This document shows, piece by piece, positions 361 through 9,573 of a DNA stretch of 9,573 bases. Each line of letters begins with the position of its first letter. Position 1 is the stretch's first letter. A program made the translations under genes and the position numbers. This DNA is from Deltaproteobacteria bacterium UBA3076. GTDB lineage: Bacteria > Desulfobacterota > Dissulfuribacteria > Dissulfuribacterales > UBA3076. The notes beneath the pieces were generated by a model that made no database searches, was not told the origin of the DNA, and was given only the letters and a program-made list of their open reading frames with translations. The stretch spans positions 1 through 9,573 of the forward strand of contig DFBQ01000168.1 in the NCBI GenBank assembly GCA_002367355.1. The letters are read 5' to 3'.

Positions 361-447
361 AATGCTGAATGCTGAATGCTGAATTGTGGAAGAAGATTTA
401 AAAGACATATACCTTAATTCAACATTCAACATTCAGCATTCAGCATT
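361..447. repeat. Inverted repeat with 7-bp-periodic arms upstream of xseA
   Basis: The left arm (361-388) is three exact AATGCTG units followed by AATTGTG. The right arm (420-447), read on the other strand, is two AATGCTG units followed by two AATGTTG units. The arms match at 25 of 28 positions across a 31-nt spacer (389-419). In RNA this would be a long hairpin in the xseA leader. An extra AATTGTG copy follows the right arm at 448-454. It is not a terminator in form, because the stem is AT-rich with no U tract. It resembles heptameric short tandem repeats known in some bacterial genomes, here arranged head-to-head. Confidence 0.8.
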
Positions 448-511
448 AATTGTGCGTCGCATGGGACAAGCCTTGCTTACTTCTTTCAGTCCACCTATAC
501 TCCAAATTACC

Positions 512-1969
512 ATGTCGGAAAATTCCATCAAAAACCTGTTTCCCCCTTCTGCCCTGGAAGGGGTTATCTTCCCCGATATTAACCAGGATATTCCTCCTTC
601 TGCCAGACATGTCTGGCAGGTCTCGGATCTTTTAGCCAAGGTCCAGGACAAATTGGAGCTTGATTTTGATATCCTGTGGGTGGAAGGAGAGATATCAAAC
701 CTTCGACAGCCTTCATCAGGCCATTACTACTTTACCTTGAAGGATAATCGGTCCCGGATCAAGGCCGTACTGTTCAAGTCCCAGGCTGCCCGCCTCCCTT
801 TTGATCCGGAGAATGGCCAGTACGTGATCTGTTTCGGAAGGCTGAATATCTATACCGGCAGGGGCGATCTCCAGTTGGTGGTGGAAACCGTTGAACCTAA
901 GGGAGAGGGGGCCCTTCAACTGGCCTTTGAACAGCTAAAGGCCCGCCTGGAAAAAGAGGGACTGTTTTCTTCTGAGCATAAACTGCCGCTACCACTACTT
1001 CCACAAAGGGTCTTTGTCATCACATCACCCACCGGCGCGGCAATCCATGACTTTATCCGGAATGCCAAGGAACGCTATCCGGGGGCAAGCATCGTACTCT
1101 GCCCGGCAAGTGTTCAAGGAGAGGGGGCTTCCGGAGAAATAATTGATTCCCTGAGAATTGCCCGGCATGTTGCCGAGAAAGGTGATATCATACTCCTCAC
1201 TCGAGGAGGTGGCTCGCTTGAGGATCTCTGGGCCTTCAACGATGAGACCCTGGCCCGTGAGATTTTCAATTGTACCATACCTGTTGTCACGGCAGTAGGC
1301 CATGAGGTCGATTTCACAATTTCAGACTTTGTGGCAGATCACAGGGCCGCCACCCCCACTGCAGCGGCACAGCTCATTTTTCCCCGCAGGGAAGAGCTGA
1401 TGGACAAGGTCGCAATCCTCACCAGGAGAATGATCCTTTCAAGTCACAACAGGTTAAAAATCAATCAACAGGCGGTTCAATTACTCCGTCATCAACTCAA
1501 GGATCCTATAAAAAAACTTGTGGAGCAGAGACTTCGTCAGGACGACCTTAATGCCGGGCTGTTGAGAGTCATGCAAGAAAAGATTGGTTTCTGGTCCCGG
1601 GGATACCTGAACCTGCGTGAAAGGCTCGTGGCACACGAACCGGGAAGACAGCTTGCCCTGGCCAAAGCCGAATCCTGCTCTCTGTCAAGGCGTTTGGTCC
1701 GGGCCGGATCGGTCTCTATTGAGAGAAAACGCCAATCCTTTGCCACATTGTCCGGAAAACTAAACGCAGTAAGCCCGCTTGCAGTCCTTGCCAGGGGCTA
1801 CAGCCTGGTTTATCGGATATCCGGAGGGAAACTTGTAAAACGTGCTGATCAGGTGGCAGAAGGTGAACGTCTCCTGATAAGACCTGAAAAGGGTGCTATA
1901 CTCTGCAAGGTATTGTCCACTGGAAAAAACCAGAACAAAGTACTATCTGAAACTGAATTAAGCGATTAG
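512..1969 (+). CDS. xseA: Exodeoxyribonuclease VII large subunit
   Basis: XseA is the catalytic subunit of exonuclease VII, which degrades single-stranded DNA in both directions to oligonucleotides in repair, in a cytoplasmic complex with several XseB subunits. From 512 the protein has 485 residues (the E. coli protein is about 456). An N-terminal OB-fold (about residues 32-129) contains WVEGEISNLRQPSSGHYYFTL. The nuclease domain carries ITSPTGAAIHD (170-180), RGGGSLEDLW (231-240) and GHEVDFTISDFVADHRAATP (263-282), all hallmarks of the family, followed by a helical region and a C-terminal GYSLV segment. The frame stays open upstream to a GTG at 386 and an ATG at 461, but the upstream part translates the inverted repeat and is unlike family N-termini, so ATG 512 is preferred. 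No clear Shine-Dalgarno sequence precedes any of the three. The stop codon lies inside the next repeat. xseB is not in the window. Confidence 0.96.
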   Translation: MSENSIKNLFPPSALEGVIFPDINQDIPPSARHVWQVSDLLAKVQDKLELDFDILWVEGEISNLRQPSSGHYYFTLKDNRSRIKAVLFKSQAARLPFDPENGQYVICFGRLNIYTGRGDLQLVVETVEPKGEGALQLAFEQLKARLEKEGLFSSEHKLPLPLLPQRVFVITSPTGAAIHDFIRNAKERYPGASIVLCPASVQGEGASGEIIDSLRIARHVAEKGDIILLTRGGGSLEDLWAFNDETLAREIFNCTIPVVTAVGHEVDFTISDFVADHRAATPTAAAQLIFPRREELMDKVAILTRRMILSSHNRLKINQQAVQLLRHQLKDPIKKLVEQRLRQDDLNAGLLRVMQEKIGFWSRGYLNLRERLVAHEPGRQLALAKAESCSLSRRLVRAGSVSIERKRQSFATLSGKLNAVSPLAVLARGYSLVYRISGGKLVKRADQVAEGERLLIRPEKGAILCKVLSTGKNQNKVLSETELSD

Positions 1970-2107
1970 CTGTTAGCCATTAGCGTTTGGCTTTGAAAAA
2001 ACAAGGCATTACATTAATTAAAAATAACACCCAACGAGTGAGGGTTTGTAATAGCAAAATATCCTGTAATCATTAAACTAATAGCTAACCGCTAAAGGCT
2101 AATCGCT
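1961..2107. repeat. Inverted repeat of TTAGCNN heptads spanning the xseA-M23 gap
   Basis: The left arm (1961-1989) starts with AGCGATTAGC and continues as TTAGC cores spaced every 7 bp. The right arm (2079-2107), read on the other strand, has the same AGCGATTAGC start and the same spacing. Of 29 aligned positions 22 match. Six of the seven mismatches fall in the two bases after each TTAGC core: left TG, CA, GT against right CT, GG, TA; the seventh is the last base. The spacer (1990-2078) is AT-rich and non-coding. The element contains the last three codons of xseA including its stop, and its right end lies 9 bp before the M23 start codon. Confidence 0.8.
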
Positions 2108-2116
2108 CAACTTACC

Positions 2117-3019
2117 ATGATATTAATAAAACAAAGATTTTTCTCATGCCTGCTCATGTTTTTTATGACGTGTTTTTTTTCCATCTGGAGCTGCAACCTG
2201 GAGGTAGAGGCTGGATCGTATCCGGTTTCGGTAAGTATGGAACCTGACAAGATCCCTCTGGGAGGCATCGCGCTGGCCACCATAAAAATAAATGACAAAA
2301 TAAAACTCCTTAATGTCCAGTTTCTTGGAAAAAAAATCCCATACCACCTTGATCCATCCAGCCGGGATTACTTTGTACTCATTGGAGCAGGTCTTGATTG
2401 TAAGCCAGGAACCCACATCCTGACTGTCAAATGGCAGGGGCCTGATGGCTCTGACCTTTATTCCCACGAAGTCCGGATAATGGCACGGACCTTCCCGGAA
2501 GAACGTCTTTCCGTACCGGAGCGCATGGTGGAATTTCCCCCGAAAATCCTGGAGCGAGTGCTAAACGATCAGAAGGCAGTAAAAGAAACATGTAACAAAA
2601 TTTCAAATAATCTTTACTGGAAAAGGCCTTTTATATGGCCTGTAAATTCCAAAATTCTCAGTCAATTTGGATTCAGGCGGATATTCAATAATAAGCCCAG
2701 AAGCCCTCACTCAGGAGTGGATTTAAGGGCCGCTGAAGGAACTCCTATCCTCGCCTCTAATTATGGAAAAGTGGCCATGGCCAGAGACTGTTATCTAAGC
2801 GGAAAGACAGTTGTCCTTGATCATGGCAAAGGCCTATACACCCTTTACGCGCACCTTGTCAGTTATAAAGTCAGCGAGGGGCAAGAAGTGGAACGAGGCC
2901 AGGTTGTTGGTCTTGCCGGGTCCACCGGACGGGCCACGGGGCCACATCTCCACTGGGGAGTGAGTCTCCTGGGCAAGAGACTTGATCCTGCAGAACTGAT
3001 GGCCTTGCTTGGCACCTGA
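2117..3019 (+). CDS. Secreted M23 family (LytM-type) metallopeptidase
   Basis: This is a 300-residue zinc endopeptidase of the M23/LytM group, expected to cut peptidoglycan cross-links in the periplasm or to act as a regulator of cell-wall hydrolysis. Residues 1-33 are a signal sequence (KQR, a hydrophobic run, then possible cleavage after VEA). A cysteine at 26 in IWSC is a poor lipobox because of the Trp. Residues about 35-125 form an all-beta N-terminal domain like that of other M23 proteins. The peptidase domain (about 173-295) retains all the metal and catalytic residues: H198 and D202 in SPHSGVD, H246 in LYAHL, and H277 and H279 in GPHLHWG, so it should be active. The start at 2117 has no clear Shine-Dalgarno sequence; the region just upstream is the arm of the preceding inverted repeat. 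It is co-directional with xseA, and the pair looks like an operon. Confidence 0.92.
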   Translation: MILIKQRFFSCLLMFFMTCFFSIWSCNLEVEAGSYPVSVSMEPDKIPLGGIALATIKINDKIKLLNVQFLGKKIPYHLDPSSRDYFVLIGAGLDCKPGTHILTVKWQGPDGSDLYSHEVRIMARTFPEERLSVPERMVEFPPKILERVLNDQKAVKETCNKISNNLYWKRPFIWPVNSKILSQFGFRRIFNNKPRSPHSGVDLRAAEGTPILASNYGKVAMARDCYLSGKTVVLDHGKGLYTLYAHLVSYKVSEGQEVERGQVVGLAGSTGRATGPHLHWGVSLLGKRLDPAELMALLGT

Positions 3020-4397: not shown

Positions 4398-4435
4398 CCA
4401 TTTGCGCAAGCCCTGAAAAAGGAGAAGCCAACCGC

Positions 4436-4558
4436 AGCAAGTCGACCAAGAAAGTCATTCCGGTCGCAGTCGTCAAGAAAGACATCTTGGCGATTCAAAC
4501 CCCTGGTGATGACATGATGAATCGCACCGGGGATATTGAGTCGTCTGTGTCGAGGCAT
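4436..4558 (-). pseudogene. N-terminal stub of a REP-associated Y1 transposase
   Basis: On the - strand, MPRHRRLNIPGAIHHVITRG followed by LNRQDVFLDDCDRNDFLGRLA is the characteristic start of REP-associated tyrosine transposases (IS200/IS605-like Y1 fold). Similarity stops after about 41 residues. The frame then runs on without resemblance into the antisense of the ATPase 3' end (stop at 4364). The HUH histidine pair and the catalytic tyrosine that should follow are missing, so it cannot be active. The frame is also open upstream to 4681, but that part overlaps the 3' end of the 82-aa membrane gene and is not transposase-like. Intact members act on REP hairpins; no obvious REP unit lies next to this stub. 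Confidence 0.8.
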
Positions 4559-4589
4559 GTCACCATAATAGTAACTCGCCAAATCACCA

Positions 4590-6583: not shown

Positions 6584-6764
6584 ATTAGCCACCCGCTCGC
6601 TATGCTCACTCGACCCACACGGACACACACAGACAAAAAACCTTATCCGCTGGTGGACACACTAGCAGATAAATTGTCGGCGTCCCTCAGGCACGTACTG
6701 TTTTTGCCCTGCCATGTCGGCAGGATAAAATGTCTGTGTGGGTCTGTGTGGGTCTGTGGCTAAT
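6584..6764. repeat. Inverted-repeat element with 10-bp-periodic arms
   Basis: The outer 9-bp ends are perfect (ATTAGCCAC at 6584-6592, GTGGCTAAT at 6756-6764). The inner arms of 24 bp (6612-6635 and 6731-6754) match at 22 of 24 positions. The right arm is built from GTCTGTGTGG units repeated every 10 bp, and the left is its slightly diverged inverse. The left side has a 19-bp insertion between outer and inner arms that the right side lacks. Inside the 95-bp loop are a paired TTATCC/GGATAA and a small hairpin CTGCC-ATGTC-GGCAG (6709-6723). The size (about 181 bp), terminal symmetry and lack of coding capacity resemble a MITE or a structural repeat. No clear target-site duplication was seen. 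Confidence 0.75.
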
Positions 6765-6766
6765 AA

Positions 6767-6986
6767 ATGTATTTTCACGGTAAAAACCCATATTATTATT
6801 CAGCTTCCCAACCGGTGCTTCTTGAGCAAGATTTTTTCCCATAGCAATCCTATCTGCTGGTCTTGAGATTGAGATTTTCCATTTTCAAAGGTCTTGCAAA
6901 CAATAGACGGTATACTGATCGATTTATTCAAATATTTTTTTGGATAGAGATGTGGTGTTGGAATAGGCTGCTTATGGGAGGTATTC
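6767..6986. other. Non-coding stretch upstream of the IS91 remnant
   Basis: No convincing gene is present. A 62-codon frame on the - strand (6800-6988) starts on the complement of the transposase start codon and has no protein-like features that I can recognise. The right end carries GGGAGG (6976-6981), a good ribosome binding site for the + strand transposase start at 6987. This may be the 5' non-coding part of the old IS91 element, but neither element end could be placed. Confidence 0.4.
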
Positions 6987-7177: not shown

Positions 7178-9573
7178 CTACTTAACTCGCCCTATGATCA
7201 CCTGTCCCTCGGCTTCGCCTTTTTTGACGGGATGTTGCGAGCCTCCGGTTGCCCTCGGCACCCACTTGTTCAAATAGAGGTAAATTTCGTTTACATCAAT
7301 GAGGCCATCCTCGCTCAGATCAGCCGCACCCTTCAAACCTTCCAGCAGGTAGTAAGTGAAGTAGCCGTGACGAAGCTTATCCGACTCCTGGCTCACCTCG
7401 TTGGCATTGCTTGAGGTAAGGATGATGCGGCCCTTTCCCGCCCGGGCGATCCGGTCCAGGAAGGAATCGGAGATGTTTGCACGCCACCCTGGGGCCAGAA
7501 TGGTCCTGCCCCCGCTTCCACCGCTATAACAACTGTCGGCAATAAAGATCACCCGTTGAGCCTTGATGCGGCTGAATATCCTGGCTATTTCGTTCATAGG
7601 AATGGCGGTGCTGTAAAGGTCCTCCGGATCAGAATTATAGGCGAGGATGTATTTGGTGATACCGTCTCTATCATCGCTTCCAGGGTCTTCCTCAGGTGCT
7701 CCGTGCCCGGCAAAGAATATTAGAACAGTATCTTCCGGCTTGTCCGCTTTTTTGCGGAGTTTGGTCCCGAGTAGAGATCTCATATTCAAAACAGTGGCTT
7801 CAGAATCATAGAGTTCAAAAAGGTGTTTCCGATCAAACCCCATGTTTTCCCTGAGATATTCAGCAAAGGCCCTGGCATCATTTCCTGCATAGTTCAGAGC
7901 AGGTATCTTGGAGCTTTGCCGGTAACGATTAATGCCGATTACAGCGGCCCACATCTCTCCCATTTCCGCTTCGCGATGGAGGGTAAGCGTCTTTGAACTT
8001 GACAGGTTTTCAATATCAAAGGCCGTAATGGTGATTTCATTCTTGCCCATACGAAGCGGTACCTTGTGATTGAATCTAAGCTCCCTCTGATCTCCGCTAT
8101 CTTTGCCAACTACTCCGATTCCCCTTGATGTGTCCAAACGGCGGCCGTTCACAAAAATGTCAATATCGGCAACACCCTTGTCGTCTGCAATGTTCCCGGA
8201 AAACCTCACAAATTCCGAGGCAACTTTATTGTTGTTCCTGGGCGATGCAATTGCAATGACCGGCGGAGCGTTATAAATCGGCGGCGGCGCAGAATAGACC
8301 TGTTTAGGTCTCTGACCTGCGACAGTTATGACTTCTGCCTGCTCCGGGACGATATTCAGGGCGAGGGAGAGATCTTTGTCTGAAAAATCCTTCTGTTTGA
8401 TGGTGAAATGAAGAGGAAGATTGCCTTCACTGGCCCTGTGCTGGACATTGATGGTGAATGTCTGAGATTCGCTCTCACTTCCTGAAGCAAGTCTGCCGAT
8501 CCTCACCGTCTTGTCGCCGAGGAGACGCACGCCCTCTTTTATGTCGCCATCGGGTCCGGCGCCAATATTGAGGACCACGTTGTCAGCATCAAGCCGTCCT
8601 GTGTTTCTTACCTTGACGATAAGGTCTACGGTTTCTCCCTGCTCAATTACCCCGTTATTGTTGCGGTCAAGGATCTGATGCGCAATCTCGAAATCGGGCA
8701 ATGTCAGTCTCACCGGTATGTTGATCCGGTCAGTGAGGCCTGGAAAATCCTGCTGGTCAAATTGAACACGGACATCCACGGAAGCATTCTGAAATGTCCT
8801 TGGGACTTTGAAGGCAAAGCGCAGGGGAGAATACTTGGAACCGGCCGGGATGTATTCTATTCTTGAATGCTTCTTGGAAAATACGAGTCCGTCGGACTGG
8901 AGAGAAACCCTGAGATTCCTTGCCTCCATCTTTCCTTTGTTGGCAGGAACGATTTCTATTTCTCCTTCCTCCCCGTTTTCGAGCACGTCATTTCCATTCC
9001 TATCTATAATTCTGTAAGTATAGGCAAGGACCGGCCGATGACTTTCCGTATTGATGGCGAAAACTTTCCTGGCTTCCGAGGCCCCACGGACATCCGAAGC
9101 CGTAAAATCAATCTCGATTTTCCCGCCCGAATACATGCGAGGGATGGAAAAGGCCAGATTTGCAGTCACTGTCTGGCCGGGCAGGATCTGGGGAATGGTG
9201 GCGCTTCTCCGGTTTACTTCAATACCCTGGTTGATGGATGCTATGGACAGTTTGACCTTCAGTGCCTTGCCGACACCATTGTTTCTGACGAACGGGATAA
9301 GCTCGATAGTTTCGCCGTTTTCAGGAATGCCGTTTCCGTTTCCCCTAGCAAGTCCTGTGTTTCCGTCATTGATCTTGTAACTGGCAATTGATAGGACTGG
9401 TTTTTCCAGGCTAACCGCAGGTACATTCAGGTTGTATTTCTTTGAGTCGTAACCGCGTTTCTCTTTGCAGACTATCCAGAAAGGCACAGTGCCGTCAGCC
9501 AGATCAAGATCGGATTTGATGTCGATTTTAACTTCCTTGGATTTACCGGGCTGGATGTCACCAACAGGGATAA
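7178..9573 (-). CDS. Multidomain caspase-like (C14) protein with calcium-type Ig repeats, 5'-truncated
   Basis: The frame stays open to the right edge, so the start lies outside; 798 codons plus the stop are visible. Residues are numbered from GTG 9487, which is only an internal codon. Three Ig-like repeats of about 110 residues each carry an Asx-rich loop, NGNGIPENGE (50-59), DRNGNDVLENGE (162-173) and DRNNNGVIEQGE (274-285), followed by N-x-G, as in CARDB-like surface modules. A proline-rich hinge (400-409) leads to a Big_7-like Ig domain (about 408-505). The C14 caspase domain (about 511-745) has the catalytic His595 in FFAGHG (codon 7703-7705) and Cys653 in IADSCYSGG (codon 7529-7531), so peptidase activity is likely. 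An EF-hand-type loop, DLSEDGLIDVNE (723-734), sits near its end. The protein is presumably exported, but the signal peptide is out of view. Bacterial members cut after basic residues in studied cases; its target is unknown. Confidence 0.93.
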   Translation of the reverse strand, partial: IPVGDIQPGKSKEVKIDIKSDLDLADGTVPFWIVCKEKRGYDSKKYNLNVPAVSLEKPVLSIASYKINDGNTGLARGNGNGIPENGETIELIPFVRNNGVGKALKVKLSIASINQGIEVNRRSATIPQILPGQTVTANLAFSIPRMYSGGKIEIDFTASDVRGASEARKVFAINTESHRPVLAYTYRIIDRNGNDVLENGEEGEIEIVPANKGKMEARNLRVSLQSDGLVFSKKHSRIEYIPAGSKYSPLRFAFKVPRTFQNASVDVRVQFDQQDFPGLTDRINIPVRLTLPDFEIAHQILDRNNNGVIEQGETVDLIVKVRNTGRLDADNVVLNIGAGPDGDIKEGVRLLGDKTVRIGRLASGSESESQTFTINVQHRASEGNLPLHFTIKQKDFSDKDLSLALNIVPEQAEVITVAGQRPKQVYSAPPPIYNAPPVIAIASPRNNNKVASEFVRFSGNIADDKGVADIDIFVNGRRLDTSRGIGVVGKDSGDQRELRFNHKVPLRMGKNEITITAFDIENLSSSKTLTLHREAEMGEMWAAVIGINRYRQSSKIPALNYAGNDARAFAEYLRENMGFDRKHLFELYDSEATVLNMRSLLGTKLRKKADKPEDTVLIFFAGHGAPEEDPGSDDRDGITKYILAYNSDPEDLYSTAIPMNEIARIFSRIKAQRVIFIADSCYSGGSGGRTILAPGWRANISDSFLDRIARAGKGRIILTSSNANEVSQESDKLRHGYFTYYLLEGLKGAADLSEDGLIDVNEIYLYLNKWVPRATGGSQHPVKKGEAEGQVIIGRVK

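Follow-up and report, generated by a model that had tools for sequence, protein, structure and literature searches.

The common view of MITEs is that they arise passively by deletion and retain no more than the transposase of their parent requires. Among those described in bacteria, MITEPye1 of the IS1182 family and the Tn3-derived TIMEs are small and non-coding, display the terminal repeats of an IS or transposon family and generate target duplications (PMC11578231, PMC4133298). The element analysed here shares these properties, whereas its parent family differs and the heptad arrays found in its arms are not mentioned for MITEPye1 or the TIMEs in the accessible parts of these sources. With the IS1380 family, of which IS1247 is listed with IR 16/13 and DR 5 (PMC3281130, Table 2), it has in common 16-bp ends starting with CCTA and 5-bp duplications; it differs by its size of 165 bp, the lack of a transposase and the heptad arrays within its ends, which the larger elements do not carry. 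Repeated short motifs bound by the transposase are also present in the ends of piggyBat and piggyBac, but these are eukaryotic transposons, the left-end motifs of piggyBat are 44 bp apart and the likeness is one by description; as far as the source is accessible, sites for the transposase recur in the piggyBat left end, where activity is suppressed by a subterminal site (PMC11707139). The TAACTGA heptamer repeats of marine Beggiatoaceae, Cyanobacteria and Bacteroidetes are likewise intergenic 7-bp units with a patchy distribution, yet the accessible text presents them as direct repeats of one heptamer, mostly located directly upstream of start codons (PMC4679880), while the units described here are arranged head-to-head, combine five constant with two variable bases and lie inside a transposon. 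In a literature search that covered few subscription journals and parts of the sources, with ISfinder outside its scope, neither this element nor any IS1380 MITE with heptad arms turned up.

The repeat lies between xseA and an M23-family peptidase gene in the window, i.e. the whole stretch of 9,573 bp that was analysed (contig DFBQ01000168.1 of Deltaproteobacteria bacterium UBA3076; coordinates in Table 1). A preliminary description of this DNA had reported an inverted repeat at 1961..2107 with a TTAGC core every 7 bp, the arms differing almost only at the two bases between the cores. This extent was too small, since the element aligns to the family consensus over 1952-2116, with the first base (A) and the last two (CC) probably being host sequence. 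Pairing between the two arms (1958-1993 and 2075-2110) extends to 27 of 36 positions. The nine mismatches (left-arm coordinates 1960, 1971, 1972, 1978, 1979, 1985, 1986, 1989 and 1991) bear out the 7-bp phase, in that the three 2-base linkers account for exactly six of them. It was also correctly described that the element supplies the xseA stop codon and occupies the whole intercistronic gap; the 9-bp distance given at that time is the one between the end of the arm (2107) and the M23 ATG. With about 165 bp and no ORF of at least 80 aa inside, the element is devoid of a transposase gene. Elsewhere in the window, a long protein with caspase-like (Peptidase_C14), CARDB and Ig-like domains is encoded at 7178-9571 on the minus strand.

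Table 1. Features of the element and its surroundings at the xseA-M23 locus (window coordinates).
Feature	Position	Strand	Remarks
Whole element (MITE copy)	1952..2116	+	Spans 165 columns in the alignment with the family consensus
Left 16-bp terminal inverted repeat	1952..1967	+	Consensus CCTAARTTGAGCGATT, here ACTGAATTAAGCGATT; IS1380-family elements terminate in a matching 16 bp
Left heptad cores TTAGC	1966, 1973, 1980, 1987 (span 1966..1991; last is TTGGC)	+	Linkers TG, CA, GT
xseA stop codon TAG	1967..1969	+	Within the first TTAGC core
Loop	1992..2077	+	Common to other copies; no ORF >=80 aa within
Leader-like stretch	2029..2049	+	Consensus ACCCAACGGGTGAAAGTTTGT; resembles DNA directly upstream of IS1380 transposase genes
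Right heptad cores GCTAA	2084, 2091, 2098 and degenerate ACTAA at 2077 (span 2077..2102)	-	Linkers TA, CC, AG
Right 16-bp terminal inverted repeat	2101..2116	-	Consensus AATCGCTCAATTTAGG, here AATCGCTCAACTTACC
Predicted left copy of the 5-bp duplication (TGAAA)	1948..1952	+	Deduced from the six relatives with an empty site
xseA, exodeoxyribonuclease VII large subunit	386..1969	+	C-terminus ETELSD-stop
M23-family peptidase gene	2117..3019	+	Starts directly after the element

In the host genome (2.6 Mb in 244 contigs), the pattern TTAGCNNTTAGCNNTTAGC is found 212 times and its backward reading not once, which places the heptad inverted repeat beyond chance. Further copies, for which the preliminary description had proposed a genome-wide search, are indeed numerous: a 191-bp query around the repeat yielded at least 58 BLAST matches in the host genome, partial and opposite-strand ones included (best 40 of 143 candidates scored), and the end sequence gave 143 matches at up to two mismatches, with none for the reversed control. 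Other near-full-length host copies display 73-93% identity; the 18 copies that we aligned have the loop as well as the arms in common, and their ends mostly read CCTAARTTGAGCGATTAGC...GCTAATCGCTCAATTTAGG. Patterns and BLAST together delivered 77 distinct paired elements from the host and other genomes, of which 29 are flanked by an exact 5-bp target duplication, compared to 1.4 expected from mismatched flank pairs; an exact flank match of 6-9 bp was found in none of the 77. The duplications are mostly TNNNA, 27 of the 29 starting with T and all 29 finishing with A. The copies, the terminal repeats, the 5-bp duplications and the empty sites presented below thus identify the repeat as a transposon, and it is almost certainly one copy of a dispersed non-coding mobile element of the MITE kind. 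This transposon nature, with terminal repeats, target duplications and empty sites, had been missed in the preliminary description.

A REP/REPIN-type palindrome moved by a Y1 (RAYT-like) transposase would agree with seven Y1 transposase matches in the host genome and with a peptide encoded at window positions ~4430-4560 (minus strand), an apparent gene remnant that by eye is like the N-terminus of a Y1/REP-associated transposase and has no Pfam match. To our knowledge, REP spread leaves no target duplication, and the exact 5-bp duplications, on which REP/RAYT mobilisation was ruled out, together with the 16-bp ends in common with IS1380 elements make this origin extremely unlikely.

The xseA-M23 gap was compared in close relatives, as the preliminary description had suggested. 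Among 13 relatives' loci, 12 carry both genes and the remaining one M23 only. Six genomes of the host genus (G002-G007) have the gap without the element, the xseA stop lying 9 bp before the M23 ATG in five of them and 18 bp in G002. The closest relative, G001, whose M23 protein is 96% identical, retains a left arm with an identical left junction, most of the remainder being deleted. Because G002-G007 are empty and G001 keeps one arm, the insertion probably dates to the ancestor of the host (G000) and G001. At the C-terminus of XseA, five empty-site relatives have ETD-, QTD- or EID-stop in place of the residues listed in Table 1. The right junction of the host copy lacks the terminal GG and a second TGAAA, so that no intact right duplication is present; it was probably lost through a deletion reaching the M23 start. 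The element would have inserted after TGAAA, replacing the xseA stop and widening the gap from 9 to 147 bp, and the wider gap is predicted to weaken the translational coupling of xseA and M23. In addition, an open frame of at least 100 codons stops inside the element, at offset 2 or 15, in 8 of the 26 own-genome elements (L038, L046, L048, L049, L050, L052, L059 and L067), and element ends may supply stop codons for several genes.

The CCTA end and the 5-bp duplication, which we take to be features of ISEcp1, pointed to the IS1380 family. The model NF033539 (IS1380 transposase) has matches in 17 of 60 relatives and none in the 95% complete host bin. One IS1380-type element, L156, starts with CCTAAAGTGAGCGATT, finishes with ATCGCTCAATTTAGG (15/16 bases) and is flanked by TGGTT on both sides; a search with an open piece of its transposase revealed relatives in 13 of 395 phylum genomes and no match in the host bin. 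At ~3070-4100 of L156, another element (IS1595-like by eye) is inserted in the right end and splits the terminal repeat. Inspection of 32 loci from the IS1380 searches led to seven distinct IS1380-type elements, from other genomes of the phylum, with the 16-bp end on both sides and 0-2 differences (L156, L185, L186, L197, L202, L204 and the short L200), the remaining loci having the end on one side or none. Exact 5-bp duplications flank three of the seven (L156 TGGTT, L185 TTTCA, L186 TATAA) and none of the other four. Beyond the 16 bp these elements diverge from the MITE, and 20 of the 21 end matches in IS1380 loci are without heptads. IS1380 matches are present in 10 of 22 element-bearing genomes and in two of six further ones, none of them with these ends, where a 13-of-16 end ~600 bp from an IS1380 fragment in L213 was left out of the count. 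A MITE can outlive its partner, and an autonomous partner is not a required feature.

The loop of the MITE was also compared with the leader just before the transposase start of the IS elements. The best match covers 18 of 21 bases, no direct parent being found, and the summed score was reached by 4 of 500 dinucleotide shuffles for the main family, 3 for L264, 1 for L244 and 20 for L070; the comparison with the IS right end gave no excess over shuffles. It is very likely that an IS1380-type driver moves the element. The element itself probably goes back to an IS1380 element that underwent internal deletion, its two ends and a portion of the transposase leader being retained.

With up to one mismatch, all eight host-genus members that were searched carry the end pattern, with 2 to 102 matches each. 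The 38 other genomes searched within this family and order lack it, it occurs in one of 14 genomes from more remote lineages, and the phylum sample contains it in 8 of 395 genomes, host included. Among the matches listed, the named genomes are mostly Deltaproteobacteria/Desulfobacterales bins (e.g. C00003106, SeepSRB2, Desulfaltia), single KSB1 and archaeal bins have copies, and some, e.g. L068 and L110, look like lone chance matches. This patchy presence fits horizontal transfer. The plasmid search returned just one 32-base arm-only match, and the phage search for the element returned none.

In each arm, a terminal TGAGC unit is followed by TTAGC-like heptads, which sit inside of the 16-bp end. 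The linkers are specific to the arm across copies, TG, CA and GT in one and, read inward, CT, GG and TA in the other. Because copies share the linkers of each arm, the arm mismatches are old differences between the arms and not local decay. The process imagined in the preliminary description, which would copy the core and not the linker, is at odds with this inheritance of the linkers with each arm. Arms range from 0 to 6 heptads, with four as the largest class (47/61 own-genome arms, 62/133 others). In a KSB1 element, the cores read TCAGC and the 7-bp spacing is retained, and the left arm of the diverged subfamily L264 shows core differences at 0 of 25 and linker differences at 4 of 8 positions.

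Related arrays were noticed in other places. On contig C58 of the host genome (6030-6076), seven TTAGC cores follow each other in one orientation, the usual number being four, and the linker TG is repeated, perhaps by a recent 7-bp expansion. On a Pseudanabaena plasmid (NZ_CP112875; L269, 1498-1605), head-to-head TTAGC heptads occur with CCTAA ends absent, and heptad arms may exist outside this element family. In the window itself, a heptad inverted repeat with a different core (AATGCTG units, 25-nt arms at 92%) is located at 360-448 near the xseA 5' end, and an inverted repeat of 10-bp units (GTCTGTGTGG; outer ATTAGCCAC/GTGGCTAAT) at 6587-6772 folds at -88 kcal/mol; neither has a second copy among the own-genome loci examined, which cover part of the genome with the window as positive control.

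In order to quantify the constraint on the cores, we used 89 distinct alignment rows, from which 11 opposite-strand or overlapping ones were left out (L040, L042, L073, L082, L114, L126, L153, L080, L244, L256 and L264). In the resulting 78 copies, divergence is 0.052 in the cores, 0.166 in the linkers and 0.149 in the loop (core below loop, p=6e-9, column test), so that the greater variability of the linkers, put forward from the two arms of a single copy, extends to the family. With one copy per genome group (22 groups, of which x127, x152 and x153 may belong to genomes already counted), the values are 0.032, 0.240 and 0.190, respectively, and the cores are below loop and linkers in 300 of 300 draws. 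In the true phase, linkers diverge 3.2 times as much as the rest, while the six other shifts give ratios of 0.28-1.74. Since the cores diverge less than linkers and loop between genome groups, the 7-bp phase reflects a real constraint, which fits selection on the cores, one of the options raised in the preliminary description. Own-genome loci from the core-pattern search were selected by the core pattern itself, while own-genome BLAST loci and the end-pattern loci of other genomes are free of selection bias for inner cores.

Within single genomes the picture varies. In the host genome alone, divergence is 0.024 in the cores versus 0.083 in the loop, with 0.064 in the linkers; the effect is clear in JAUWHV (core 0.018, loop 0.141) and JAFDDO (0.073, 0.173), and no core advantage over the loop is visible in MAXM (0.038, 0.043) and CSMAG_3040 (0.078, 0.062). 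Core singletons are not rarer than loop singletons in other genomes, in a blunt comparison which includes duplicate rows and in which variable columns hide private changes. When changes were mapped by parsimony on a tree built from the loop only, the ratio of internal to terminal changes was lowest in the cores (0.23), followed by the 16-bp ends (0.35), the linkers (0.42) and the loop (0.61); cores (p=0.0008) and ends (p=0.014) differ from the loop and linkers do not (p=0.13). With the full-length tree, cores, ends, linkers and loop give 0.39, 0.38, 0.42 and 0.50, and the first three do not differ from the loop (p=0.41, 0.26 and 0.55). The loop-only tree hints at selection that works chiefly on source copies as the element spreads, with decay of the resident ones, and this stays at the level of suggestion because the contrast vanishes on the full-length tree.

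These data also bear on the possibility that the heptads of an IS1380-type MITE are functionless, having arisen by 7-bp replication slippage by the end and looking conserved through re-copied cores or young copies. Arm deletions of 7 and 14 bp (L044, L047, L048) and the range of arm lengths speak for slippage, as do the two genomes without core constraint relative to the loop and the core singletons. In the accessible part of a survey, heptanucleotide repeats are the commonest class in most genomes, and polymerase slippage is proposed (PMC4679880). Slippage would, however, copy the linkers too, yet each arm keeps its own distinct ones; four heptads predominate, the diverged subfamily keeps the cores with other linkers and, between genome groups, the loop diverges ~6x more than the cores. 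We consider this explanation conceivable but rather doubtful.

A host-useful intergenic RNA hairpin (terminator, attenuator or processing site), with the cores kept to hold the stem, is quite unlikely. The transcript of the locus copy does fold into a stem at -41 kcal/mol, and long open frames end within the element in the 8 own-genome cases mentioned above. In contrast, core changes in the 78 copies are one-sided in 132 cases and two-sided in four, of which one is still paired; the number of heptads in one arm does not correlate with that in the other (Spearman -0.17, p=0.15, n=77), the consensus linkers form no Watson-Crick pair, the site is empty in six of eight genus members and there is no Rfam match anywhere in the window. 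As the core changes are uncompensated across the arms, the cores are not kept by pairing; on this ground and on the Rfam result, stem pairing was ruled out as an explanation for their conservation. The contact every 7 bp invoked in the preliminary description hence loses its RNA version, through the stem, while its other part is in line with core conservation in phase; contacts to double-stranded DNA in each arm would be a simpler reading than pairing. An avoidance of pairing by the linkers was also discarded, since the apparent deficit comes at least partly from opposite-strand duplicate rows.

Altogether, we regard it as probable that the repeat is a ~165-bp MITE with IS1380-type ends, likely moved by a transposase acting in trans, whose heptad cores are likely protein sites for its spread. 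In the proposed mechanism, an IS1380 element would have lost its interior, heptads would have been added inside the ends that it kept, and an IS1380-family transposase supplied in trans would move the product, with the TTAGC cores every 7 bp serving as DNA sites for a protein needed for spread. For the cores taken by themselves, a role as putative protein sites used in spread is slightly favoured from the comparison of copies. The larger IS elements are without heptads, thus their transposase does not need them and, should the protein turn out to be this enzyme, the array could be helpful but not essential; it is possible that a host protein instead of the transposase occupies the cores. More speculatively, and to be held as doubtful, the heptads may be an invention of the MITE, in which identical 5-bp protein sites at 7-bp spacing beside the 16-bp IS end would recruit the transposase better than the autonomous parent does, leading to dozens of copies, in distant bacteria and with no resident partner.

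The transposon is of an ordinary kind; the constrained heptad array inside its ends is the new part. The family carries a regularly spaced motif array that is absent in its larger relatives and is conserved between genomes as if it mattered for spread, and it offers an opportunity to test whether a MITE has evolved a cis-acting enhancer of its own. At this locus, it explains an odd intergenic inverted repeat and how a gene takes its stop codon from a transposon, and the element is a marker family for a group of Deltaproteobacteria bins.
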